Positions 3,276-19,795 of a stretch of DNA of 22,351 nucleotides are shown piece after piece. The position numbers and the translations under genes are program-made. The notes under the pieces were generated by a model. That model ran no database searches, was not told the origin of the DNA, and worked only from the letters and a program-made list of their open reading frames with translations. Numbering within the stretch: position 1 is the stretch's first letter; each line of letters starts with the position of its first letter. The DNA is taken from positions 1 to 22,351 of the IMG/VR virus record IMGVR_UViG_3300010354_000742. One strand, given 5' to 3'. This stretch comes from a virus.

Positions 3276-3830
3276 CTAAGTTGCCTCGTTGTCTTCAAGC
3301 ATCTCCCACGGGGTTGGTCGTGGGCAGATATGGAGGTCAAACCCACGGATGTCGTGATCCATTGGGCTGGTGGCTGTCAGTGCCAGCTTGAGCTGCTCTT
3401 CCGTCATTCCGAGCTGCATCAACACATCCCCTCGGCTACACCCGCGCTCCAGCATCTTCCTCGCAAGCTGTCCATTACGCCGAACAGCGCCGGGTGCCTT
3501 GAGCGTCCAGTTGTGGTCACGGATGAAGTGCAGCACATCCCCCTCGGCAAACACCGTCAGCAGCGTCGAGAAGGTGCCTTTGGCGGGCTGCCATGCGCGG
3601 CAGGTCTTGATAAATGCCTGATCAATGCAGCTGAACACGTCTTCCGCCGCCACAAACGGATACTTACGGCACAGCTTGCGTCCCATCAAGCGGAGCAGCC
3701 CTTGGTGCTCTCGATACATCCGCGCAACGTGCCTCTGCTCTTCCTTGCTCAGGGGCGTCGAAAGGTAGCCGGTGCGGGGTCTTCGACGCACCGGCTTGGT
3801 TGGGTCACACCTATCGGCAAACTGCCTCAT
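3276..3830 (-). CDS. minimal sigma-70-like factor (region 2 plus a short following segment), 184 aa
   Basis: ATG at 3830. Residues 36-106 match the shape of sigma region 2: a helix (EHQGLLRLMGRKLCRKYPF), then AAEDVFSCIDQAFIKTCRAW, then KGTFSTLLTVFAEGDVLHFI ending in RDH. This corresponds to the family pattern of ED-L-x-Q-E, A-x-x-x-F, G-x-FST and G-x-I-x-x-x-R-D. Residues about 110-155 (LARKMLERGCSRGDVLMQLG) look like a region 3-like helix-turn-helix. I see no region 4 (-35 reader). Size and architecture recall T4 late sigma gp55 (185 aa), but homology to gp55 is not claimed. It lies in the structural operon between the neck adaptor and the tail tube genes. A 47-bp gap upstream holds tandem TACGACTACGCTAC-like words. 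Role in late transcription is inference. Confidence 0.65.
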   Translation of the reverse strand: MRQFADRCDPTKPVRRRPRTGYLSTPLSKEEQRHVARMYREHQGLLRLMGRKLCRKYPFVAAEDVFSCIDQAFIKTCRAWQPAKGTFSTLLTVFAEGDVLHFIRDHNWTLKAPGAVRRNGQLARKMLERGCSRGDVLMQLGMTEEQLKLALTATSPMDHDIRGFDLHICPRPTPWEMLEDNEAT

Positions 3831-9456: not shown

Positions 9457-9993
9457 ATGCAGGAAGTATGGCGTCCCGTCGTCGGATACGAGGGGCTCTA
9501 TGAAGTCTCTGACCAAGGCAGGGTGCGAAGCCTTGACCGAGCCGTTGTGCAGTTAAACAGGGGAGGCAACTGCACCCGCCTGTACAAGGGAAAGTTGCTC
9601 CGGCTTGTGGCCACGGCTAAGGGCTACATGACCGTGTGCTTGTCAAAAGCCGGAAAGCACAGAACCGTCAAGACCCACCGGCTGGTTCTAGAAGCGTTCG
9701 TAGGAGGGCCTGCTCCGGGGCAGGTGTGCCGGCACGGACCTCTGGGCGTTCGGTGCAACGCACTGAATAACCTTTCTTATGGAACTCAGCAGGAGAACAT
9801 CAATGACCGAAGGCGTGATGGCACAGATGTGACTGGAACCCGAAATCCCAAAGCCAAGCTGACAGAAGCCCAAGTGAGTGAAATACGAGCTAGCAGGAAG
9901 ATGGGTACTGAACTCTCAAAAGAGTATGGAGTAAGTAAAAGTGCTATATACGCTATAAAAAGTAGTACCTCGTGGCGTAATCTTCTTCAGTAG
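9457..9993 (+). CDS. NUMOD4-HNH homing-type endonuclease, 178 aa
   Basis: ATG at 9457; no clear ribosome site. Residues 2-28 (EVWRPVVGYEGLYEVSDQGR) are a NUMOD4 motif. Residues about 72-120 are the HNH part: THRLVLEAFVGGP, His93 in CRHGPLG, Asn101/104/105 in NALNNLSYGT, then QQENINDR. Residues 130-175 (NPKAKLTEAQVSEIRASRK and on) are a DNA-binding helix-turn-helix tail. Such enzymes cut DNA and often spread as free-standing homing endonucleases, though HNH proteins beside terminase can also aid packaging. It runs against the flanking leftward genes and its stop overlaps the large terminase stop tail-to-tail by 7 bases. The last 120 bases are visibly more AT-rich than its neighbours, suggesting acquisition. 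Confidence 0.9.
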   Translation: MQEVWRPVVGYEGLYEVSDQGRVRSLDRAVVQLNRGGNCTRLYKGKLLRLVATAKGYMTVCLSKAGKHRTVKTHRLVLEAFVGGPAPGQVCRHGPLGVRCNALNNLSYGTQQENINDRRRDGTDVTGTRNPKAKLTEAQVSEIRASRKMGTELSKEYGVSKSAIYAIKSSTSWRNLLQ

Positions 9994-11342
9994 ACCCTGA
10001 ACTTTGAACCGCCTGTGGCCCACCGACGCAGTGGGGCGAGGTAGGACACGGCGTAACCCAAGGCATCCACGGGACCTGAGATGTCGTCCAAGCCCCCGAC
10101 CCCCTTCTCAGGCTTGCCGCTCTTGTCGTAAGTCTGCTGCTCCAAGGACTTAATCAGGTACTTGCAGCGGTTGTGAACCTTCATCCGATCCGCCAGCAGC
10201 AAGACGTTTACGCAGTTGACTCGATCACTGATCTGCGGGTTCGCGGACTGCACCTTGAGCTGGAACCCACCCTTACGAAGGAGCGACAGGTCGGATTCAC
10301 TGGCGTTGGTGGTGGTGCGCTGGCGAGAGGCCGCGTCAGGTATGACCACAAGATTCCCCGCCTCTAGCTGGACGGGGTAGGTCTCCTTGAGCAAGCGCAC
10401 CAAGGCAGGAGTGTCCTTCGGATGGTGCTCAGCGACAACGTGGAACTCATCGCCCCTGCGCACAATCACCTCGGTAAAACACGCCGAAACGTTGAAGTCA
10501 ACCCCGATAAGCAAGCGGTCTGTCTCAAGAATCTCCGTGTCGCACCAATGACGATCTCGGCAGAAGGGATGGTAGACCGTCGTATTTGCAAGGTTTGTGA
10601 ACTCACCTTGGATGTAGCTGGCAATTAACTGGTTGTCGTAGTTCTGGTAGAGCGATTCGACAAAACCCTTGGGGAGGTGGGGGTTGTCGGTGGTCGCAGC
10701 GCGTATCAAACGGCGGTCGTCGTTGTCACCCTCTTCAACGAAGGTGCGGTACATGTATTTATAGCCTTCTGGCGTGGAGGCAAGTGCCAACTGGGGTTTC
10801 TTGCCGCCACGCAGACGGGCTAGCATCATCTCGGCGGCTTTCTTTGATACCTCCTGCGAAGATGTGTCGATCTCATCGGCCAGGCAGAAGCTTAAGTTCT
10901 GGCCCCTGATTCTATTAAATGTCTCGGTTGCTCGACAGATAAGGGTTACGGGGCCGTTTGAAAGATGTAGGATGTACTCCGGCTGGGGAGACACGCGGAA
11001 GTCGTACTCAATCTTAAATTGTTCGAGAAACTCGTCGAAGGAGCGCATCCAAACGTCCCGCAACATGATGTTGGTGGGCTCGAAGACTGCGGCGGTGGTG
11101 TTTGGGTTATCGAGACCAAGAAATATGGCCTTCGCGCACAACGCAAAGGTCTTGCCAGCGCCGAATCCGGCGCAATAACCGAGGATCTTGTGCTCGGTGT
11201 CGTCGACAAACTCCTTTTGAGGGGGGAGTAGGGCGTCGTAAATGCGGCTGCGCAGTGATTCGTAGCTCTCCGTGCAGCGGGTGCTGGTGCGTTGCGGGGG
11301 CTCCAGGACGTTGCCGCCGGCGATCACGCTCAGAATCGACAC
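9987..11342 (-). CDS. terL: terminase large subunit, 451 aa
   Basis: GTG start at 11342 (MSILSVIAGGNVLEPPQ). The ATPase domain has Walker A at about residues 58-65 (AGFGAGKT) and Walker B with the catalytic Glu at about 153-158 (CLADEID). The RNase H-like nuclease begins near residue 282 (LIGVDFNVSACFTEVIVRR), and the C-terminus has GLDDISGPVDALGYAVSYLA, where Asp residues of the nuclease are expected. The enzyme is the motor and nuclease that packages DNA into the prohead through the portal. The small subunit gene lies 600 bases upstream instead of adjacent. Confidence 0.93.
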   Translation of the reverse strand: MSILSVIAGGNVLEPPQRTSTRCTESYESLRSRIYDALLPPQKEFVDDTEHKILGYCAGFGAGKTFALCAKAIFLGLDNPNTTAAVFEPTNIMLRDVWMRSFDEFLEQFKIEYDFRVSPQPEYILHLSNGPVTLICRATETFNRIRGQNLSFCLADEIDTSSQEVSKKAAEMMLARLRGGKKPQLALASTPEGYKYMYRTFVEEGDNDDRRLIRAATTDNPHLPKGFVESLYQNYDNQLIASYIQGEFTNLANTTVYHPFCRDRHWCDTEILETDRLLIGVDFNVSACFTEVIVRRGDEFHVVAEHHPKDTPALVRLLKETYPVQLEAGNLVVIPDAASRQRTTTNASESDLSLLRKGGFQLKVQSANPQISDRVNCVNVLLLADRMKVHNRCKYLIKSLEQQTYDKSGKPEKGVGGLDDISGPVDALGYAVSYLAPLRRWATGGSKFRVY

Positions 11343-11357
11343 GTTCTCGCCAAGGAA

Positions 11358-11378
11358 CTACTTACTCAGGTTACTAAG
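11358..11378. promoter_or_regulatory. CTTA...TAAG element before terL
   Basis: CTTACTCAGGTTACTAAG lies between the terminator-like hairpin and the terL start, 16 bases upstream of the GTG. Its TTACTCAGGT core closely matches CCTACTCAGGTAAG at 19129-19142 before the ribbon-helix-helix gene. It is a candidate operator or promoter element; no clear -10/-35 pair is seen. Confidence 0.35.
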
Positions 11379-11382
11379 CCCC

Positions 11383-11413
11383 AAAAGAAAAGCCCCCGCT
11401 CTCCAACGAGGGC
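11383..11413 (-). terminator. leftward rho-independent terminator upstream of terL
   Basis: Read leftward, GCCCTCGT and GCGGGGGC form an 8-bp stem (two G-U pairs) with a 6-base loop, followed by TTTTCTTTT. It would stop transcripts coming from the small terminase and the non-coding block before terL, implying that terL has its own promoter or that read-through is controlled. Confidence 0.6.
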
Positions 11414-11472
11414 CTCGTCCCCTTGGTCACATCCACCCGTTGGATGCACCCCACCTTACCTAGGTCGTCAAT

Positions 11473-11515
11473 GGGGGCAGGGGGAGGTGGGGGTAGGGAC
11501 CTTGGGGGTAGGGGG
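11473..11515 (+). repeat. G-run cluster, G-quadruplex-prone
   Basis: Six runs of 3-5 G separated by 2-5 bases lie on the plus strand (for example GGGGGTAGGG), so the leftward mRNA would be C-rich here. It is the densest G-run cluster in the window and lies in the non-coding block upstream of terL. Confidence 0.65.
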
Positions 11516-11521
11516 CACTGA

Positions 11522-11598
11522 CGTAGGGGTAATTAGAGTGTTAGATGTGACGTAAGGGTGTTATTGAGCTTGGGGGTTACTGGCGTAAGGGTGTTATT
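11522..11598. repeat. three CGTARGGGT direct repeats
   Basis: CGTAGGGGTAATTAG at 11522, then CGTAAGGGTGTTATT at 11551 and again at 11584, spaced 29 and 33 bases. Read on the minus strand they give ACCCTTACG, related to the C-rich leaders of the rightward gene set. Confidence 0.6.
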
Positions 11599-11945
11599 TG
11601 GGGTGGTTCGATGTGGGAGGCGCGGGGTATGTCCCTGTGCCCTGAGCTCATCACCGTGGGGGTAGGGCTGCGGCACCCGGTACGGGGGGCATTTGCTCCA
11701 TTAGTGACAACCACTAGTGGGGTTGATGCTCACCTAGCGGGTGCAATCCTGCCCCTACCCCTGACGGGGGTGTGCGATATGTGAGAGACCTTAGCGCTGG
11801 TGAGTTTGGCCGGATTAAAGGCGCGATACCACCGGCCGGATGTGGTGAGCCTGCCTTGTTGGTAGGTGTGGCTGCCCGCCTCGGTGTTGTTACCGGCTGG
11901 CGTTAGCGGGTGTTACCACCGGCAAGTGTCGCCCTGGTGCGCGGG

Positions 11946-12275
11946 TTACTTGGGTGCGTCGGCGCCTACGGTGCGCAGGATTGCACAAGCGGCACCAACG
12001 GCTGCGCTGTATTGGCGCTCCTTGGTGGCGAGGTCTGCGATGTGTTCAAGCCTTGCGAGCTGACGCGCGACAAACTCCTCGCGCCTTTGGTTGAACGTGG
12101 CCGCGATTCGCTCGGTTGCTTTCTTTATGTAGGTGTCAATCATGCGATCAGATACCCCCCACCCCTCCTCGGAAGCGAATCGGATTATCCGCCAACGGGC
12201 TGCCCCTTGGCTCAAAAGCTCTTCAACAGCCGAGATGCGCTGTTCGAACTGCGCTTTTGTTCCTTTGACGGCCAC
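11946..12275 (-). CDS. terminase small subunit-like protein, 109 aa
   Basis: GTG start at 12275 (MAVKGTKAQFEQRISAVEEL). Residues 14-53 form a helix-turn-helix of small-terminase style (RWRIIRFASEEGWGVSDRMI, then DTYIKKA). A helical tail follows (ARLEHIADLATKERQYSAAV), as in DNA-recognising small subunits that bind the packaging site and recruit the large subunit. It is in the same direction as terL but separated by a 600-base gene-free block. The 142-aa protein at 14917-15345 has a similar architecture, so which of the two is the packaging subunit is not certain. A simple phage HTH regulator is the alternative. Confidence 0.65.
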   Translation of the reverse strand: MAVKGTKAQFEQRISAVEELLSQGAARWRIIRFASEEGWGVSDRMIDTYIKKATERIAATFNQRREEFVARQLARLEHIADLATKERQYSAAVGAACAILRTVGADAPK

Positions 12276-12409
12276 CGACCCTTACATAAGTTATTCTGAC
12301 CCTAGTTTGCCCGGATTGGTCGCCCTGGTGGGTTTACGACCGCAACTTACGTAAGGCACAATGGAGTTAAGGCCCGTAAGGGTCTGACCTTTACCCCTAC
12401 CCCTCCTCT
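12276..12409. promoter_or_regulatory. divergent control region with two CTTAC-type palindromes
   Basis: This region separates the leftward small-terminase gene from the rightward accessory genes. CTTACATAAG (12281-12290, one central mismatch) abuts the leftward start, and CTTACGTAAG (12346-12355, perfect) lies on the rightward side. A possible 8-codon leader ORF (12361-12387) contains a weak hairpin GGCCC-gtaa-GGGTC without a T run, followed by the first C-rich leader. No convincing -35/-10 pair was found; the palindromes are likely operators. Confidence 0.5.
12384..12409 (+). repeat. C-rich leader copy 1
   Basis: TTACCCCTACCCCTCC directly before the ATG at 12410. It is a short form of the leader found before four further genes; it lacks the upstream stop codon and the CCCAACC part. 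Confidence 0.6.
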
Positions 12410-12703
12410 ATGGAACCCGTTTCAACTCTGACCCTTGTAGACGGCGTGTGGGTCGCGCCTAATGGCCAGACCTTTGCCCCGGACAGCGAGGGTGTTGTAC
12501 TGATTCCTGCCGGTGCGATCAGCGCCGACTCGTTTGAGATTTACCCCCACACCGAATCGGTGGTGCTGTATTTGTACCCCTTCAGCACTTACATTTGTGA
12601 GCTGGACTGCGGCGGCTTTTACCTCCAGCTGGAGAACTGCGAGCACGAGTCAGCAGAACTGGCTGAGCTGGCCGCGATTCTTGAGGAGTGGTTGGCCGAA
12701 TGA
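12410..12703 (+). CDS. unrecognised acidic 97-aa protein
   Basis: ATG at 12410 follows the C-rich leader. The protein opens MEPVSTLTLVDGVWVAPNGQ and has a middle with alternating hydrophobic and aromatic residues (VVLYLYPFSTYICELDCGGF). Its C-terminus is strongly acidic (ENCEHESAELAELAAILEEW). There is no signal peptide or membrane helix. First gene of the rightward set; its stop overlaps the next start (ATGA). Small acidic phage proteins sometimes mimic DNA and block host nucleases, but nothing here proves such a role, and I recognise no family. Confidence 0.65.
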   Translation: MEPVSTLTLVDGVWVAPNGQTFAPDSEGVVLIPAGAISADSFEIYPHTESVVLYLYPFSTYICELDCGGFYLQLENCEHESAELAELAAILEEWLAE

Positions 12704-12867
12704 TCCGCTCTGCCTTTTGCTTTGCCGCTGCCTGCGGCCTTTATGTGCTTGGCACTGCTGGCTGCCTCGTTACTACTGCTGCGATTGCCAAGCATCTTGA
12801 GATCACCGGCTGCCGCTCTGAGGCTCGCCTAGCGGGTTTGGACCCGTCCTATTGCGAGCATCGCTAA
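12700..12867 (+). CDS. small Cys-rich membrane or secreted peptide, 55 aa
   Basis: The ATG at 12700 overlaps the previous stop by 4 bases, a coupled arrangement. Residues 1-30 (MIRSAFCFAAACGLYVLGTA and on) form a hydrophobic segment that could be a membrane anchor or signal peptide. The remainder (KHLEITGCRSEARLAGLDPS) is polar with two more Cys. No family recognised. Its TAA begins the second copy of the C-rich leader. Topology and role are unknown. Confidence 0.55.
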   Translation: MIRSAFCFAAACGLYVLGTAGCLVTTAAIAKHLEITGCRSEARLAGLDPSYCEHR

Positions 12868-12905
12868 CCCAACCTCGTTACCCCTTACCCCTACCCCTTC
12901 TCATC
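12865..12905 (+). repeat. C-rich leader copy 2
   Basis: It begins with the TAA stop of the 55-aa gene: TAACCCAACCTCGTTACCCC, then TTACCCCTACCCCTTCT, then ATG at 12906. The C runs would give G-runs on the template strand. Confidence 0.75.
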
Positions 12906-13181
12906 ATGCAATCCCCAGAACACTACTTGCCCGGTTTGCTGGTGCGTTATCGCGGCGCAACTGACACGCGAGGCAGCCGCTGGGTTGCCACTCTCACCCG
13001 TGGTGCTGGCCCGGATTGGAAGCTGAGCGCCACGGTTCCCTATCAGTCCGGCCCGGATGCGGCAGCCGCTGCGGTGGTGGCCAAATTCAATACAAAGCAC
13101 GCCACCAGCTGGCGGGTCGATCCCACTGCGCTCTCGTTAGACGGTGGTGCTCTGTACGGGTACGGCTGTTTGTGCAATTAA
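12906..13181 (+). CDS. conserved small phage protein of unknown function, 91 aa
   Basis: The ATG at 12906 was chosen because it directly follows the C-rich leader; an upstream ATG at 12852 would overlap the previous gene. The core VRYRGATDTRGSRWVATLTR, followed by an Ala-rich helix (AAAAAVVAKFNTKH) and a closing aromatic strand (GGALYGYGCL), resembles a small phage protein type with a TNTRGSRxxA motif seen near DNA metabolism genes in many phages. That is from memory and gives no function. It is the second leader-preceded gene of the rightward set. Confidence 0.65.
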   Translation: MQSPEHYLPGLLVRYRGATDTRGSRWVATLTRGAGPDWKLSATVPYQSGPDAAAAAVVAKFNTKHATSWRVDPTALSLDGGALYGYGCLCN

Positions 13182-13213
13182 CCCAACCCCGCCAACTTTT
13201 CCTCCTTTTGATC
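13179..13213 (+). repeat. C-rich leader copy 3 (diverged)
   Basis: TAACCCAACCCCGCCAAC, with the stop codon of the 91-aa gene at its start. It then diverges into a pyrimidine-rich TTTTCCTCCTTTT before ATG at 13214. The first 13 bases match copy 5 exactly; the TTACCCC part is lost. Confidence 0.7.
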
Positions 13214-13933
13214 ATGGCCAAGACCGTTACCCTTACCACTGCTACAGGTTCCCGCACCGTTCCGGCGGTGTGGGTTGGTGATCACCTAGCGGTGCATCGG
13301 CCGCTTGATAGCAAGGAACCCAGCGGCCTTAGCAAGCTCCCGCGCTGGTGGGTGATCAGCCACACGGCAACCGGCTATAGCGCTTCCGGTGGGATTGATG
13401 CTGCGCAACGGGATGTGATCGCACTGGCCCGCTTGTGGGATGGTGCGTTTGCAAGCGTCACCGCTGCAGGCGATGCCAAGGGCTGGAAGTGGCGCGACCG
13501 CTGGGCGGATGATGTTCGCCGGTTGGGTTACGGCAGACCTGTTGTTGGCCCGCGTGATCTGACCCCCCTAGAGGAATTGAACAGCGCTGGCACAGCTGGT
13601 GAGGTTGAGCAGGCCGTGCGGCGGGCTATGGGTTACAGCCCGATTGAAGAACCGGAAGCATCCGAACAGTTTCCGGCTGAGGTCACCAAACGCAAGGCCG
13701 GCCACGGTGCGATCCGGCGTAACCCTGAGAGCCAAGAACTGGAATTCTGGTGGCTGCCACAAGGCGGTAACTATCCCGATTCTGAAGCGTTCGCTCTGGC
13801 CGCTTGGTATCCGATCCCTGCCGCTTGTGATGTTGAGGGCTGGTGCCTTGGTTCCGTTGCCGAAACCCCCTGCGGCGATTCTGTGGAACCTGATCACCCG
13901 GACGCATGGCCGCGCTTGCTTGGCCTGATCTAA
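13214..13933 (+). CDS. unrecognised 239-aa protein
   Basis: The ATG at 13214 is set by the leader position; upstream in-frame codons overlap the 91-aa gene. The N-terminal half is rich in Trp (LPRWWVISHTATGYSASGGI; GWKWRDRWADDVRRLGYGRP). After a linker with many Glu/Pro, the C-terminal half (AGHGAIRRNPESQELEFWWL; ACDVEGWCLG) is again aromatic. No membrane segment, signal peptide or nucleotide-binding motif is seen. I recognise no family. It is in the same transcription unit as the GP88-like protein. Confidence 0.65.
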   Translation: MAKTVTLTTATGSRTVPAVWVGDHLAVHRPLDSKEPSGLSKLPRWWVISHTATGYSASGGIDAAQRDVIALARLWDGAFASVTAAGDAKGWKWRDRWADDVRRLGYGRPVVGPRDLTPLEELNSAGTAGEVEQAVRRAMGYSPIEEPEASEQFPAEVTKRKAGHGAIRRNPESQELEFWWLPQGGNYPDSEAFALAAWYPIPAACDVEGWCLGSVAETPCGDSVEPDHPDAWPRLLGLI

Positions 13934-13978
13934 CCGAACCCCGTTACCACTAACCGTTACCCCTACCCCTTTTAATCA
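13931..13978 (+). repeat. C-rich leader copy 4
   Basis: TAACCGAACCCCGTTACCAC, then TAACCGTTACCCCTACCCC and TTTT, with ATG at 13979. The TAA is the stop codon of the preceding 239-aa gene. Confidence 0.75.
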
Positions 13979-14680
13979 ATGGCAACCCCTACCCTCTCTG
14001 GCCGCTTGCGGTTCCACTTGACGGTGCGCAGCAGTAACGCAAAAACCGGCCCGATCCCGGTTTCCACCAGTAGCCGCGCAACCTGCCCCGATTCCTGCCC
14101 CTTTAAGCGGAACGGCTGCTATGGCGACGGTGGGCCGCTTGCGATTCACTGGCAGGCCGTTACTGATGGTGAGCGCGGCAACCCTTGGAAGGAATTCTTG
14201 GCCGCAATTGAAGCGCTACCAGCTGGCCAGATCTGGCGCCACAATCAAGCTGGCGACCTTTGGAAGCCGGGAACCCTTACGGGTCGCACCGCCTTAAATC
14301 AGCTGGTGGAATCGAACCGGGGCAAGCGCGGCTATACCTACAGCCACCACAAACGGACCCCTGCAACAGTTGCCGCTTTTAAGGCTGCAACCGCAAACGG
14401 TTTCACCGTTAACGCCAGCTGCGAAACCGTAGCCGGCGCTGATCACGCAATTGCGCAAGGGTTGCGGGCGGTGTTCGTGGTTCCCTCTACCGAAACCCGC
14501 ACGGCGTGGGATACCCCGGACGGCAACCGGGCGGTGCTTTGTCCAGCGCAACGTATCGACGGTCTGACCTGTGAGAAGTGCCGCCTATGTCAGTCCCGGC
14601 CGCAGAACGTAGCCGTTGCTTTTAAGGCTCACGGTTCCGGCCGTAAGCGGATTGAAGCGGTTCTCTCTGCACTTGCCTAA
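13979..14680 (+). CDS. Cys-rich phage protein, GP88/DUF7227-like, 233 aa
   Basis: ATG at 13979. The protein shows the hallmarks of a widespread phage family known to me as GP88 or DUF7227-like. These are KTGPIPVSTSSRATCPDSCP near residues 22-41, CYGDGGPLAIHW, a RHNQAGD block (87-93), GYTYSHHK (118-125), and a C-terminal CPAQ...TCEKCRLCQ cluster. Cys residues lie at about 36, 40, 47, 148, 188, 198, 201 and 204, so a zinc or iron-sulfur site is likely. The family's biochemical function is, as far as I know, undetermined. It is the largest conserved member of the rightward accessory set. Confidence 0.7.
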   Translation: MATPTLSGRLRFHLTVRSSNAKTGPIPVSTSSRATCPDSCPFKRNGCYGDGGPLAIHWQAVTDGERGNPWKEFLAAIEALPAGQIWRHNQAGDLWKPGTLTGRTALNQLVESNRGKRGYTYSHHKRTPATVAAFKAATANGFTVNASCETVAGADHAIAQGLRAVFVVPSTETRTAWDTPDGNRAVLCPAQRIDGLTCEKCRLCQSRPQNVAVAFKAHGSGRKRIEAVLSALA

Positions 14681-14720
14681 CCCAACCCCGTTACCCCTGA
14701 CCCTTACCCCTTTTAAAGCA
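14678..14720 (+). repeat. C-rich leader copy 5
   Basis: TAACCCAACCCCGTTACCCC, then TGACCCTTACCCCTTTT and a short purine stretch before ATG at 14721. It includes the stop codon of the GP88-like gene. It is the clearest copy. Confidence 0.8.
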
Positions 14721-14924
14721 ATGAGAAGCCCGATGCGTCCCGGTTCTGATGGTGTGTCAGTACGGCTGGCCGCTTTGCAACGCAAGCCTGATCGTGTAAC
14801 CGTTGTGATCAGCGCTTCGCTGTCTGATCGCCTACGGGATCGTGCCCTAGTTGAGGGCCGGTCTCTCTCCAACCTTTGCGCTTATTTGCTTGAGGTTTCG
14901 ATGGCAGGTGCGCAGCATGGCTGA
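14721..14924 (+). CDS. CopG-like ribbon-helix-helix protein, 67 aa
   Basis: ATG at 14721 after the fifth leader. Residues 25-58 fit a ribbon-helix-helix fold: a beta strand (RVTVVISASLS), helix 1 (DRLRDRALVEGR) and helix 2 (SLSNLCAYLLEVSM). Such dimers bind DNA operators through the strand, and the RSLSNL turn is common in CopG-like proteins of cyanobacteria. It overlaps the next gene by 8 bases, so the two are probably made together. It is a candidate regulator of the rightward set or of the CTTAC-type palindromes. Confidence 0.7.
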   Translation: MRSPMRPGSDGVSVRLAALQRKPDRVTVVISASLSDRLRDRALVEGRSLSNLCAYLLEVSMAGAQHG

Positions 14925-15345
14925 TGATCAGCGCAGCCGTGCCACTGATCAGCAGCTGGCGGAACGTGTGAGCGTGGCTGCCATGCTGCGCTTGCAAGGC
15001 GCCACACCTAGCGCGATCCTGTCCCGGCTGGTGAGCGATTATGGCGTGTCAGTCCGGCAAGCCCGGCGATACCTAGCGCTGGCCAATGAGGAGATAAAGG
15101 AGGATGGCATCCCACCAGCTGCCGACCCCTTTAGCGAAACCGCCACGATGGCTCTCCACCGGATACAGCTTCAAATGATGGAAGCGACCCCGAGTGAACT
15201 GCCCCGATTGATTGGTGCTCTGGCCAAATTGCGGGAGGTCATGGCAAACGGCCCTAGCCTCTCTGATGGTGACCTGATCAACCGCGCGGCGTTTGAGGGC
15301 GGGCTAGCTGCGCTAGGCAGCAGAGAAGGCCCGGAGCTGAGATGA
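14917..15345 (+). CDS. small-terminase-like HTH protein, 142 aa
   Basis: The ATG at 14917 lies within the end of the 67-aa gene. Residues 16-56 form a helix-turn-helix (RLQGATPSAILSRLVSDYGV, then SVRQARRYLALANEEI). A second helical part contains ALHRIQLQMMEATPSELPRL. This layout (HTH, linker, helical oligomerisation part) is like the 109-aa protein at 11946-12275 and like small terminase subunits. It could be a second small-terminase paralog, a DNA-binding partner in packaging, or an unrelated HTH regulator. It is the last gene before a strong terminator. Confidence 0.6.
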   Translation: MADDQRSRATDQQLAERVSVAAMLRLQGATPSAILSRLVSDYGVSVRQARRYLALANEEIKEDGIPPAADPFSETATMALHRIQLQMMEATPSELPRLIGALAKLREVMANGPSLSDGDLINRAAFEGGLAALGSREGPELR

Positions 15346-15368
15346 GATCACCGCCCATAGATTCCACC

Positions 15369-15390
15369 GGCCCCGTAAGGGGCCTTTTCT
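15369..15390 (+). terminator. rho-independent terminator ending rightward gene set
   Basis: GGCCCC-gtaa-GGGGCC followed by TTTTCT: a 6-bp perfect GC stem with a 4-base loop, 23 bases after the stop of the 142-aa gene. Confidence 0.85.
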
Positions 15391-15398
15391 GTGGCCGC

Positions 15399-15416
15399 TA
15401 TGTCACGAGTGACATA
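15399..15416. promoter_or_regulatory. 18-bp palindrome TATGTCAC-GA-GTGACATA
   Basis: Perfect 8-bp arms with a 2-base centre, 8 bases past the terminator T-run and about 130 bases before the 72-aa gene. Position and symmetry suggest an operator or promoter site for that gene. TATG/CATA ends recall the CTATGAC/GTCATAG arms before the 221-aa regulator, but the cores differ. Confidence 0.45.
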
Positions 15417-15547
15417 AGGCGCAGCCGAAACCCCTTGCAACCACTAGGGCGGTGCGGCGCAAAAACAAAAGGCCGGACGTTAACCCTTACGTATGGGCTA
15501 GGTTGGCGGTGCCAAGGGCAGCCTTGGCAGATCACAGAATCAGACCC

Positions 15548-15766
15548 ATGAAAACCCAGACCTGTTACAACCCCTCAGAGTTGGTGTGGCTTGCCATGCT
15601 CACCCTCCAGCACTTGGAGGATGTTGAGGATCTCAGCCGAACCTACGGCGACTTTCTAGATCATCTGCGGGAGTTGCAACAGGATTTGATTAGACCTCGC
15701 CGCCCTGGTGAGTTGTCCTGCACCATCCGCACAAAAACAACCCATAAGCGCTGCACCTGTAGGTGA
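15548..15766 (+). CDS. unrecognised 72-aa protein in a terminator-bracketed cassette
   Basis: ATG at 15548 (MKTQTCYNPSELVWLAMLTL) is preferred; an in-frame ATG at 15452 would add 32 basic residues. The protein has a helical, Leu-rich first half (LQHLEDVEDLSRTYGDFLDH) and a basic C-terminus with two Cys. No family recognised. It stands alone between two near-identical terminators and is preceded by a palindrome, the layout of a phage moron (an independently transcribed extra gene). That reading is inference. Confidence 0.5.
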   Translation: MKTQTCYNPSELVWLAMLTLQHLEDVEDLSRTYGDFLDHLRELQQDLIRPRRPGELSCTIRTKTTHKRCTCR

Positions 15767-15772
15767 TCGGCT

Positions 15773-15796
15773 GGCCCCATAAGGGGCCTTTCTTTT
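15773..15796 (+). terminator. second rho-independent terminator
   Basis: GGCCCC-ataa-GGGGCC followed by TTTCTTTT. It is nearly identical to the hairpin at 15369-15390 and lies 6 bases after the 72-aa gene stop. Confidence 0.85.
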
Positions 15797-15828
15797 GTGC
15801 CCTGAGATGAGAACAATAATCACTCCCC

Positions 15829-15877
15829 CTATCCGCCAGGTCCTATTTGCCAGGCCATTCCCCCTATTCGCCAGGCC
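15829..15877. repeat. three 14-bp direct repeats CTATYYGCCAGGYC
   Basis: CTATCCGCCAGGTC (15829), CTATTTGCCAGGCC (15843) and CTATTCGCCAGGCC (15864) lie in tandem, spaced 14 and 21 bases. They sit in the gene-free convergence zone and look like iterons or protein binding sites. Confidence 0.75.
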
Positions 15878-16003
15878 AAGAGCCACATAGCAGCGTAAGG
15901 GTTAGTGTAGGTGAGGCGGTCGTCGCTACCCGTAAGGCTGCGAGCGGTGTCATCAGGTGATTCTGCTGGTGGCTGAAACCGTACTGGAGGCCGCCAACCC
16001 CAG
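15878..16003. other. gene-free part of the convergence zone
   Basis: Between the two repeat arrays I see no gene on either strand. It contains GTAAGGGTTAGTGTAGG near 15894 and CCGTAAGG near 15930, words related to the recurring GTAAGG motif, but no clear promoter or terminator. Confidence 0.5.
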
Positions 16004-16071
16004 GGTGAATGCGATTTTGCTCCCTTGAATGCGATTTCTAAGGGGTGAATGCCCTAGTGAATGCGATTTTT
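16004..16071. repeat. GTGAATGCGATTT direct repeat array
   Basis: TGAATGCGATTT occurs at 16006, 16026 and 16058, with a truncated copy (GGTGAATGCC) at 16044; the TGAATG words are spaced 20, 20 and 12 bases. Looser relatives are at 16125 (TTGAATGGCGTTTC) and 16415 (ATGAATGCGGTTTC). An exact GGTGAATGCGATT lies inside the nuclease gene at 16615. Confidence 0.7.
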
Positions 16072-16180
16072 AGGGTCCGGTATCCAGCCCAGTGGCGTGC
16101 TTGTGGTGGGTGAGGTGTCCCCCTTGAATGGCGTTTCGGGTTCCGTTGTCGTAGCCCAAGAAGTAAACGCCAGCCAGCAC
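16070..16180 (-). CDS. possible 36-aa peptide
   Basis: A GTG at 16180 opens a short frame (MLAGVYFLGYDNGTRNAIQG, then His-rich) that ends at 16070, next to the repeat array. A TTG at 16186 would begin 2 bases before the stop of the preceding gene. The frame is also open upstream, but only within the 89-aa gene. Its short hydrophobic start may be membrane-associated. Weakly supported. Confidence 0.25.
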   Translation of the reverse strand: MLAGVYFLGYDNGTRNAIQGGHLTHHKHATGLDTGP

Positions 16181-16187
16181 GATCAAC

Positions 16188-16457
16188 TCACAGGCGGCGC
16201 AGGTTAAGGACCAGATCAATGTCCTCTCCCCACGTTTCCTCGCCGTCTTGCCAGAGGACCTCGCAGGTGGGGTCGAACTCGTCGTCGTAATACTCCTGGA
16301 CAAGCGGCTCCAGCACTCCAAGCAGGGCTTCGTTGAACCACAAACCCTGCAGGTTGTGGATGATGGGGTCAGGGCTGTCATTGCGGTGCAGAACGATGGT
16401 GGTGCGCTTGTGAGATGAATGCGGTTTCGGTGGGTTCAACCTGCTAAGCCACGACAC
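16188..16457 (-). CDS. unrecognised acidic 89-aa protein
   Basis: The GTG at 16457 overlaps the end of the nuclease gene by 14 bases and is the best start; a longer frame to 16607 would lie wholly inside the nuclease gene. After a basic N-terminus (MSWLSRLNPPKPHSSHKRTT), residues 45-89 are strongly acidic and aromatic (LGVLEPLVQEYYDDEFDPTC; WQDGEETWGEDIDL). No family recognised. It is the last clear gene of the leftward early unit. Acid-rich proteins beside nuclease genes could be inhibitors, but this is speculation. Confidence 0.55.
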   Translation of the reverse strand: MSWLSRLNPPKPHSSHKRTTIVLHRNDSPDPIIHNLQGLWFNEALLGVLEPLVQEYYDDEFDPTCEVLWQDGEETWGEDIDLVLNLRRL

Positions 16458-17145
16458 GGGGCGCCTCCTGCGGATGAAGTTGCTGATAGCGATGCAGGCG
16501 TTCAAAAAAGTCCTGCTCGCATTGATCAAGCAGTTGGCGATCCAAGTGATAAACATCAGGTTTGCCGATCTGACGGGCGACAACAAGTAAGGCTTGATTG
16601 ACCTCAATTCCGTAGGTGAATGCGATTGCAGCCCTGTAAGCCGCTAGTTGGATGTAGTACCCACCCCGCATCATTTCGGAGTTGGGATCGCGGTATCGCT
16701 GCGAGGTTTTCCAGTCGATCAAGCAAATGTCGGTGGAGTCGTAGGTCCACCCCAAGCAATCGAAGGTGCCACTGAAGCCTGCACCGTGGTAGCAAGGCAG
16801 CTCAACGCCGAGGGCGCTGTGAAAGTTGGTCTCTAACCAGCGCTGCAAGGATCTCCAGTAACCGCCAAACACAAGGTGGTGTTGAGTTGGTAGCCCGTGA
16901 ATCCAATTTTCCGCTTGCGTGTGTAGGTAGGTGCCTCGTGTACGTGCAGCGAGGGAGCGCTCCTGTCCACCTGGGCGATCCAGCCAAGCTTGGAGAGCTT
17001 TTTTAGCGGCATCACTTTTGGTGGCACCGACCACCGTGGTGATGGATGGGAGTCTGCCGAGAGGTGTTTCGTAGCCGGTGCGGTCTTCCCTGCGGGTGAT
17101 GTCGCCACGAGGGGGTGGCATCTGCAGGGAGTAGGTGGGTTTCAT
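16444..17145 (-). CDS. PD-(D/E)XK exonuclease, RecB/Cas4-like, 233 aa
   Basis: The ATG at 17145 overlaps the methyltransferase stop by 4 bases. Visible nuclease motifs are RGTYLHTQAEN (residues 70-80, His75), GFSGTFDCLG with Asp129, LIDWKTS with Asp144 and Lys146, and YYIQLAAYRAA with Gln166 and Tyr170. These are the conserved positions of the RecB-like PD-(D/E)XK fold. In phages such enzymes process DNA ends for recombination or replication, or degrade host DNA. The gene lies with ssDNA-binding and methyltransferase genes, consistent with a DNA-metabolism operon. Confidence 0.82.
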   Translation of the reverse strand: MKPTYSLQMPPPRGDITRREDRTGYETPLGRLPSITTVVGATKSDAAKKALQAWLDRPGGQERSLAARTRGTYLHTQAENWIHGLPTQHHLVFGGYWRSLQRWLETNFHSALGVELPCYHGAGFSGTFDCLGWTYDSTDICLIDWKTSQRYRDPNSEMMRGGYYIQLAAYRAAIAFTYGIEVNQALLVVARQIGKPDVYHLDRQLLDQCEQDFFERLHRYQQLHPQEAPRVVA

Positions 17146-18192: not shown

Positions 18193-18798
18193 TCAGAACG
18201 GAGACTTGGTGGGATCACCGCCAGTCAGCAGGGCAGAGAGGTTGTAGCCCTCTGCAGCGCACTCCTCCCACGCAGCCTTCACCTGCGCTCCAACCGCACC
18301 CTTCCGTTTTCCAGGCTTGAGCACCACCGTGTAGCGGGTGTCCATGCCGGTGCCGGTGCGGTTCAGCTCGAAATCCCATGCACCAGGATCGTTGGCCACG
18401 TCCTCATCACTGAACAGTGCAGCCAACGTGTCGAGGATCGACACTTGGCTGGCCTGGAACAAACGCACCTTCTCAGTGGCGTAATCCCAAATCCAGAAGG
18501 CCAGCGCCTGCTTCAAGCGGGTGGGCTGTCCCTTCTGGTCGATGAGGGTGACACCCTCATCAGCAGCGCGGTCGTCCAACTCCTTGGCGGTGGGCTCCTC
18601 AGAGAAACGCAACGACTTGGGCTTGCCTTCTGAGGTGCGTCCCCAGATCTCGTAGAAATCCAGGGAGGCGTCACCCACAGGGGAGAACCGCACGGTGTCC
18701 CCATCAGAGAGGGAACCGGGGTTCAGGTAGAGATCACCGCTACCGGAGGTCTTCTTCTCCTTGACGGCGGTGACGAAACGGTCAGAGACGAATGGCAT
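18193..18798 (-). CDS. gp32-like single-stranded DNA-binding protein, 201 aa
   Basis: ATG at 18798. The central part follows phage ssDNA-binding proteins of the gp32-like type. It has LKQALAFWIWDYATEKVRLF (residues 95-114), QASQVSILDTLAALFSDEDV, then GAWDFELNRTGTGMDTRYTV (139-158). This is the OB-fold strand pattern with a hydrophobic W-x-Y segment and R-x-G-x-G-x-D-T-x-Y. The C-terminus ends in SPF, similar to the PF tips with which SSBs contact partners. It coats ssDNA in replication and recombination. A TTGACA promoter overlapping a palindrome lies just upstream. Confidence 0.78.
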   Translation of the reverse strand: MPFVSDRFVTAVKEKKTSGSGDLYLNPGSLSDGDTVRFSPVGDASLDFYEIWGRTSEGKPKSLRFSEEPTAKELDDRAADEGVTLIDQKGQPTRLKQALAFWIWDYATEKVRLFQASQVSILDTLAALFSDEDVANDPGAWDFELNRTGTGMDTRYTVVLKPGKRKGAVGAQVKAAWEECAAEGYNLSALLTGGDPTKSPF

Positions 18799-18822
18799 GA
18801 ATGGAGTGCCGGTGTCGTCTCC

Positions 18823-18850
18823 ACCTTACCCAGATAAGTAAGGGTGTCAA
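18823..18850 (-). promoter_or_regulatory. SSB gene promoter with overlapping operator-like palindrome
   Basis: Leftward, TTGACA (18845-18850), a 16-base spacer and TAAGGT (18823-18828) form a sigma-70-type promoter about 25 bases before the ATG. CCTTAC (18824-18829) and GTAAGG (18838-18843) form perfect 6-bp arms lying over the -10 and spacer, where a repressor would block RNA polymerase. Confidence 0.6.
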
Positions 18851-18869
18851 GGGGTTGAGGTGGTGCGGT

Positions 18870-19100
18870 TCAGCTGCTCTTCACCTCAGACAGCAGGTGG
18901 CTGCGCAACTTGCCAATGTCCATGCCGGAGACCTCACGGGCCAGCACCTCAAACAGCTCAGACCTGTTGATGCCGCTCTTCTCAGCAGCATCAGTCCACA
19001 GCACCCACGCTTCCTCGCTCACAGAGATGGTGCGCTGTGCCTTGAAGCCCCAAGGGGTGTGGCTGGAACGTCCACCCATCGGGCGACTCAGTGCAGGCAT
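18870..19100 (-). CDS. ribbon-helix-helix (CopG/MetJ-type) DNA-binding protein, 76 aa
   Basis: ATG at 19100. After a 20-residue basic arm, AQRTISVSEEAWVLWTDAAE followed by KSGINRSELFEVLAREV gives the strand-helix-turn-helix pattern of ribbon-helix-helix repressors. Fold assignment rests on this pattern only. It lies between the 221-aa regulator and the SSB gene in the same direction. It is a candidate for the protein that binds the CTTAC...GTAAG sites around it, including the one covering its own upstream region. Confidence 0.65.
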   Translation of the reverse strand: MPALSRPMGGRSSHTPWGFKAQRTISVSEEAWVLWTDAAEKSGINRSELFEVLAREVSGMDIGKLRSHLLSEVKSS

Positions 19101-19115
19101 CGTTGATCAGCTATT

Positions 19116-19144
19116 CACTTACATAATACCTACTCAGGTAAGTG
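19116..19144. promoter_or_regulatory. nested palindromes before RHH gene
   Basis: CACTTAC (19116-19122) and GTAAGTG (19138-19144) are perfect 7-bp arms. Nested within is TACCT-actc-AGGTA (19127-19140). On the leftward strand TATTAT, a near-consensus -10, lies between the arms. The element overlaps the 3' end and stop codon of the 221-aa gene. Confidence 0.6.
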
Positions 19145-19795
19145 CTTGCTTACTTCGTGTTGGATCACGTCCCACAGCTCCCCCTCAGGCACCTCCAGCT
19201 CCTTCGCTATCGCTGGTAGTGACTCCACAATCACCTCCCCATGCACCGTGTTGCCGGTGAGGAGTCCCTCGAATGCAGGTGCCAAGCCATTCAGCCTCGC
19301 CTTGTCCTCCACCACATAATCCACACCCCGCTTCGCCAGCTCGATCCGCAGCCACCTCCCAAACTCCTTGTTCACCTCCACCTCACACTCCTGAGGGATC
19401 TCCTGCACATCGGGCAGCCCCAAGTCCAGCTCCCCCACAAACGCCAGGAACAGCTCCGCCGGTCCCAACACCTCACCACTGGAGGTGCGCATCGGTTGCT
19501 TCTCCTCCACCAGCTTCCCCAACCCAACGGGGTAGCTGCGCTCAGCTAACGCCACGTTCAGCCTCCCCAGCGCCAGCAACACCTTGGGGGCAGGATCCCT
19601 GAGAGTGCCGGTGGCAAAGCCGCTGATCTGGGATGAATGGATCACCTTGTCCCCCAGCACCGCTTCTGACAGCTTCAGCAGGCCAGGCTGGCTCCACTGA
19701 CGGGACCACGGCTTAAACAGCTTCCGAAACTGCTCGCGTCCCTCAACCGTTTGGCTGGTGATAGGGCCTGGGGGAAATTGGCTGGGCTTACCCAT
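19130..19795 (-). CDS. putative DNA-binding regulator, 221 aa
   Basis: ATG at 19795. Residues 37-80 look like a helix-turn-helix domain: LLKLSEAVLGDKVIHSSQIS, then GFATGTLRDPAPKVLLALGR. This SSQI...F..G.LRDPAPK pattern seems familiar from cyanobacterial and cyanophage hypothetical proteins. The C-terminal part (VNKEFGRWLRIELAKRGVDY; IAKELEVPEGELWDVIQHEV) may be a second helical domain. No protease or recA-cleavage site of a LexA-like repressor is evident. A TTGACA promoter overlapped by a palindrome lies directly upstream, which fits autoregulation. Function is inferred from these features only. Confidence 0.55.
   Translation of the reverse strand: MGKPSQFPPGPITSQTVEGREQFRKLFKPWSRQWSQPGLLKLSEAVLGDKVIHSSQISGFATGTLRDPAPKVLLALGRLNVALAERSYPVGLGKLVEEKQPMRTSSGEVLGPAELFLAFVGELDLGLPDVQEIPQECEVEVNKEFGRWLRIELAKRGVDYVVEDKARLNGLAPAFEGLLTGNTVHGEVIVESLPAIAKELEVPEGELWDVIQHEVSKHLPE

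Follow-up and report, generated by a model that had tools for sequence, protein, structure and literature searches.

Why should a run of unrelated genes in a virus be preceded, gap after gap, by nearly the same C-rich sequence? The question is raised by IMGVR_UViG_3300010354_000742, a cyanosiphovirus-like IMG/VR virus record of 22,351 bases (the window, meaning the whole of that stretch), in which a rightward run of seven small genes (12410-15345) adjoins the leftward structural module and ends at a terminator-like hairpin. Five C-rich gaps before genes of this run had been pointed out in a preliminary description made from the sequence, and all five are present as it placed them. The best explanation of the repeats, which we hold at a probability of about 0.62, is that they are unstructured translation-initiation leaders, independent of a Shine-Dalgarno (SD) sequence, that serve an operon of accessory genes. 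The parts of the run are as follows (all on the plus strand; aa, amino acids).

12333..12362, promoter-like site TTTACG - 18 nt - CACAAT, tentatively read by eye
12346-12355, palindrome CTTACGTAAG inside the promoter-like spacer, candidate operator
12371..12384, 5' hairpin GGCCC-GTAA-GGGTC near the presumed transcript start, from individual folds
12384..12409, leader 1, C-rich, shorter than the others, before the first gene
12410..12703, gene 1, 97 aa, no family match
12700..12867, gene 2, 55 aa, ATGA overlap with gene 1, without leader
12868..12905, leader 2, 38 nt after the TAA at 12865-12867
12906..13181, gene 3, 91 aa, no family match; an orthologue with the same N-terminus occurs in contig L004
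13182..13213, leader 3, 32 nt after the TAA at 13179-13181, the most divergent copy
13214..13933, gene 4, 239 aa, no family match
13934..13978, leader 4, 45 nt after the TAA at 13931-13933
13979..14680, gene 5, 233 aa, DUF7227 (Pfam PF23872, E 7.6e-77)
14681..14720, leader 5, 40 nt after the TAA at 14678-14680
14721..14924, gene 6, 67 aa, ribbon-helix-helix protein (Pfam RHH_5, E 1.7e-7)
14917..15345, gene 7, 142 aa, overlaps gene 6, without leader
15369..15391, terminator-like hairpin GGCCCCGTAAGGGGCC, followed by TTTTCTG, end of the operon

Genes 1-7 seem to constitute a short operon that would be read from a single transcript. Each of its five uncoupled starts is preceded by a C-rich leader, and four of these leaders begin at a TAA stop. 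A leader before consecutive genes, as originally proposed, is therefore correct for starts that follow a gap, but not for those at 12700 and 14917, which overlap the previous gene and have none. The leaders were also said to match one another, which holds closely for three internal copies: TAACCCAACCCCGTTACCCC is found without mismatch in the gap at 14678, with one mismatch at 12865 and with two at 13931. The gap at 13179 has only its first 13 nt in common with these (TAACCCAACCCCG) and continues as CCAACTTTTCCTCC, and the gap at 12384 shares only the 3' half (TTTACCCCTACCCCT). The AACCCCGTTACCCCTACCCC sequence is nevertheless common to the leaders far beyond what base composition gives, as pairwise local alignment of the four internal leaders gave a mean score of 14.8, against 7.4 +/- 0.6 in dinucleotide-preserving shuffles, none of which (0/300) reached 14.8. 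A weight matrix whose training set consisted of other phages, with the window phage excluded, placed the leaders at 12865, 14678, 13931 and 12384 at ranks 1, 2, 3 and 5 in the window and that at 13179 at rank 6; rank 4 was 13220-13239, the first codons of gene 4 (start 13214), and all six best matches thus lie inside the operon. C-rich runs alone are unspecific and occur elsewhere in these genomes; it is the position together with the sequence motif that is specific. No exact copy of a leader 23-mer was found in bacterial genome contigs.

Relatives were gathered from IMG/VR via DUF7227, via the 14-mer AACCCCGTTACCCC (102 matches, mostly chance) and via the terminase, and gave 11 phages of the same group carrying this operon, some as fragments. 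The sample consists of metagenomic contigs (given below by our own G and L handles), genes were called with a home-made caller and operon starts were curated by hand. The 62 gene starts listed in the 11 phages comprise 11 first genes, 35 internal starts that follow a gap and 16 coupled starts, at which the gene overlaps its predecessor or lies almost directly against it. When a leader is defined by no more than 3 G and 11 or more C over the 30 nt before the start, 35/35 internal uncoupled starts have one, compared with 0/16 coupled starts and 7/103 uncoupled starts outside the operon, counted in four of the genomes; the difference in upstream G count is highly significant (Mann-Whitney, p 6e-17). 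The operon starts were first chosen with the leaders known, and a recount was made by a blind rule that takes the first ATG, GTG or TTG after the previous stop; 31 starts were unchanged and the count was still 35/35. Leader gaps span 20-50 nt, and the leader runs through the whole gap from stop codon to start codon. Two seeming gaps of ~150 nt hold a 35-codon reading frame, after which a gap of ~40 nt remains. Inclusion of the upstream TAA, a part of the original definition, applies to all four internal gaps of the window, but the corresponding stops in the relatives are TGA (21), TAA (11) and TAG (3), and TAA is therefore a feature of the window and not of the element.

Several properties of the leaders bear on translation. 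SD tetramers (positions -20..-4) are absent from the 35 uncoupled leaders and from the upstream regions of the 11 first genes, while 7/16 coupled starts have one. Predicted folding energies for the region -35..+20 average -2.2 kcal/mol at leader starts, -11.6 at other uncoupled starts and -14.7 at coupled starts, and the leaders folded alone give values near 0. The depletion of G reaches into the genes, as the G fraction of codons 2-9 is 0.156 compared with 0.309 in the remainder of the same genes (p 1e-10) and 0.257 in other genes. Start-like triplets occur in 7/35 leaders and in 68/103 other upstream regions. That the repeats could be shared translation signals was among the preliminary suggestions, and the restriction to uncoupled starts, the predicted lack of structure, the missing SD and the low G content extending into the first codons all agree with it.

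In the translation model, a gene that overlaps its predecessor would receive the ribosome directly from it and would need no leader. Where there is a gap, a spacer nearly devoid of G could pair neither with itself nor with the coding RNA and would contain few rival start codons. This would leave the start region open, to be found without an SD by 30S or scanning 70S ribosomes, perhaps with the help of ribosomal protein S1. For initiation without an SD, an unstructured region is reported to be both necessary and sufficient (PMC3121790), and cyanobacterial genes without an SD show weaker 5' structure (PMC6847405). Uniform wording inside one phage group would be maintained by recombination among the copies or by their concerted evolution.

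The relevance of cyanobacteria depends on the host. The window encodes terminase, portal, scaffold, major capsid and head-tail proteins, a PD-(D/E)XK nuclease and a primase/helicase. The nearest named relatives of its terminase, capsid and portal are the cyanophages S-H1, KBS-S-2A, MED4-117/184 and S-2L, with best identities of 41%, 57% and 36%, respectively, and because these relatives infect cyanobacteria, a cyanobacterial host is likely. Other routes were uninformative: the DUF7227 protein has relatives in phages of many hosts, and a search of genomes with it returned distant contigs of metagenome-assembled genomes only, while comparison of the sigma factor of phage G007 with solved structures indicated no particular host.

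Some observations weigh against the translation model. The cyanobacterial host is itself deduced from these relatives. An SD is rare elsewhere too (10/103 other uncoupled starts), and since most of those genes manage with neither an SD nor such a leader, the leader answers no general need. Further, the leader sequence is conserved within the group well beyond dinucleotide composition, and unstructuredness alone needs no single sequence. The uniform wording is the part that the model leaves unexplained; it could stem from concerted evolution, from exchange taking place at the copies or from a reader specific to it.

The exchange of genes is central to the first alternative, also raised in the preliminary description, by which the leaders are short homologies for swapping cassettes between phages and any translational role is secondary or additional. 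This is possible, if clearly less probable than a translational role. The gene content of the operon does vary, the 62 genes of the 11 phages falling into 29 protein clusters, 16 of them singletons, and 13/46 ends of homologous blocks lie at leaders, which make up only ~9% of the operon. Blocks ending in a leader were seen between G004 and G007, G004 and G008, G007 and G008, and G009 and G010, and at the start between G000 and G001. Among seven core phages, leader identity was 0.68 where the flanking genes are unrelated, likewise 0.68 where homology is confined to the downstream genes, and 0.74-0.77 where the upstream genes are homologous, and is thus about equal between unrelated genes and orthologues. 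As it is the same with or without downstream homology, the leader is tied to its position and does not travel with the following gene. However, any exchange at the gene level breaks near gene borders, so that an enrichment is expected anyway, and coupled borders lack leaders even though genes change there as well. Exchange also leaves the G-poor rule and the low G of codons 2-9 unexplained, as well as the fact that distant lineages retain the composition and not the sequence. The data are compatible with leaders as recombination points but do not separate cause from consequence, and the leaders may additionally provide homology where cassettes meet. A second alternative is a role as binding sites for a sequence-specific RNA-binding regulator, of phage or host origin, that would switch the operon at the level of translation, with words differing as the factors differ. 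Leaders resemble one another by more than composition within the window group and within contig L015 (0/500 shuffles as similar), more weakly in L068, and lineages are no more alike than shuffles, L015 and L008 excepted. However, the leaders of L343 and L348 and the copy at 13179 retain the composition although their sequence has diverged widely, and the distance from motif to start codon varies between 6 and 22 nt, both of which make this reading doubtful. More speculative still, and decidedly unlikely, is a scheme in which every cyanosiphovirus lineage has its own leader word, read by a lineage-specific RNA-binding factor that switches translation of the operon, the word serving at the same time as a universal socket for new genes.

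The remaining alternatives concern transcription and DNA or RNA structure. G-quadruplex or i-motif elements, for which the preliminary description saw potential in the G-runs of the template strand, are the most improbable of these. Such runs occur in most leaders, but the pattern of four runs of at least three G or C with short loops (up to 7) is found in 12/35 and, with loops up to 12, in 16/35, and only one of the four internal leaders of the window has it, which argues against a conserved property. Rho-utilisation (rut) sites causing intercistronic polarity would fit in length and composition, as Rho binds 30-50 nt of C-rich, G-poor RNA. Rho is absent from cyanobacteria (PMC13289151), the hosts of the best named terminase, capsid and portal relatives, and if the window phage also has a cyanobacterial host, rut sites are very unlikely. 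There is a precedent for internal promoters or RNA-processing sites in the intergenic repeats of halovirus HF2, and promoters can sit in repeated intergenic elements before genes (PMC8707807). This too is highly improbable here: a strict sigma-70 consensus scan (-35/-10 hexamers spaced by 16-18 nt) of 11300-16500 reported no promoter, the leaders are C-rich and lack an AT-rich -10, and a separate promoter-like site and 5' hairpin already precede gene 1.

Among known systems, the nearest described element is the Start-Associated Sequence (SAS/ESAS) of Cluster K mycobacteriophages (PMC3203893). Both are group-specific repeats, found in one orientation a few nt before the starts of different, unrelated non-structural genes, and the SAS likewise sometimes includes the stop of the previous gene and has been proposed to act in translation. 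The SAS is, however, a 13 bp sequence, GGGATAGGAGCCC, with the SD core AGGAG, whereas the leader measures 20-50 nt, lacks an SD, is nearly free of G, occupies the gap from end to end and does not occur at coupled starts. The leader thus works in the same place as the SAS but is not a member. Unstructured SD-independent regions (PMC3121790; PMC6847405), including those of cyanobacterial genes, similarly have no SD and a folding minimum around the start, but they are a statistical tendency with no common sequence, while the leader is one near-repeated sequence serving a whole operon. A looser parallel is given by the TAACTGA intergenic repeats of Beggiatoaceae and some cyanobacteria (PMC4679880), which lie just before starts, apparently replace the SD and have S1 as a candidate reader; these are tandem heptamers of unrelated sequence in bacterial genomes. 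The PeSL elements of T4-type phages (Arbiol 2010 and Comeau 2014, as cited in PMC4503421) are, from that citing account, repeated intergenic elements tied to small-gene shuffling that consist of a promoter and a stem-loop, neither of which the leaders have, given folding energies near 0 and no promoter in the scan. The cultured cyanophage S-2L (MW334946) has C-rich, G-poor gaps before several genes of its small-gene block (for example, 2 G and 20-21 C in 30 nt), but of another sequence, and several of these genes also have a TTTAAT promoter-like repeat just upstream. The literature searched, from which subscription journals were mostly absent, contained no description of the present leader.

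Beyond the group, G is scarce before DUF7227 genes (at most 3 in 30 nt) in 43 of 52 distinct upstream regions, with different leader words in other lineages (CAATCGCAACC, CAATCAAATCC, ACCACACC and others). These leaders were selected by composition, and their comparison is exploratory. In L015 three genes have a common ACCACACC leader; the within-lineage signal is weaker in L068 (4/500 shuffles as similar) and weak in L008 and S-2L, and among ten comparisons between lineages only that of L015 with L008 was above shuffles (0/200). As far as these contigs indicate, the G-poor composition is kept across long distances and the wording only within a group. This qualifies the idea that related genomes should share the leader: close relatives keep it and the density of the motif in coding sequence is near zero, but distant DUF7227 relatives have leaders that are unrelated in sequence and equally G-poor.

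How start codons are chosen without an SD, a frequent situation in cyanobacteria, is an open question that has mostly been studied by genome statistics. The operon offers a compact natural test set, in which a gap has a leader and an overlap has none, near-identical leaders stand before unrelated genes and sister phages use other words. If the leaders are standard sockets, they would explain how accessory genes are swapped without loss of expression and would be of use as parts for expressing genes in cyanobacteria.

The promoter-like arrangement with the CTTACGTAAG palindrome, as read by eye, also precedes the first gene in most relatives, although the strict scan did not report the site at 12333..12362 either. 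The palindrome and its variants lie in addition upstream of 18798 and 19795, before early genes, as they do in relatives, and it is a candidate repressor operator. The first-gene hairpin is kept in relatives with differing stems and loops of GTAA, GCAA, GCGA or TTAG (mostly GNRA-type), as judged from single folds; the minimum-energy fold of the window itself pairs this region otherwise. A scan of 11300-16200 against Rfam gave no match up to E 1.

Other repeats were noted in these genomes. A second upstream motif, ~GGMAAMYTAGG (e.g., GGCAACTTAGG and GGAAACCTAGG), lies 20-45 nt before many structural genes: on the minus strand of the window it is found upstream of 1799, 3255, 4420, 6541, 8988 and 12275, and there are many sites in L310, L311, L307 and L308. 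It is a candidate late promoter element, and the phage sigma factor encoded at 3276-3830 (Sigma70_r2, below Pfam's cut-off) is perhaps the one that uses it. In phage G007, contig L311 carries a full-length sigma-70 family gene (18424-19476, minus strand; regions 1.2, 2, 3 and 4) in addition to the short sigma-like gene. A long non-coding gap before the large terminase (11470-11620, minus strand) contains copies and variants of CACCCTTACGTCA, embedded in C-rich sequence; it occurs at the same place in G001, G004 and G007-G010, is conserved in the relatives examined and is a possible replication or packaging site. Antisense pairing of the leaders with the G-rich strand of this gap was considered and rejected, as the complementarity follows from composition. 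On the plus strand, 9457-9993 encodes an HNH endonuclease (NUMOD4), opposite to the adjoining terminase gene, and short repeats of TGAATGCGATTT are found near 16026, 16058 and 16416 (16026-16075 and 16416-16433).

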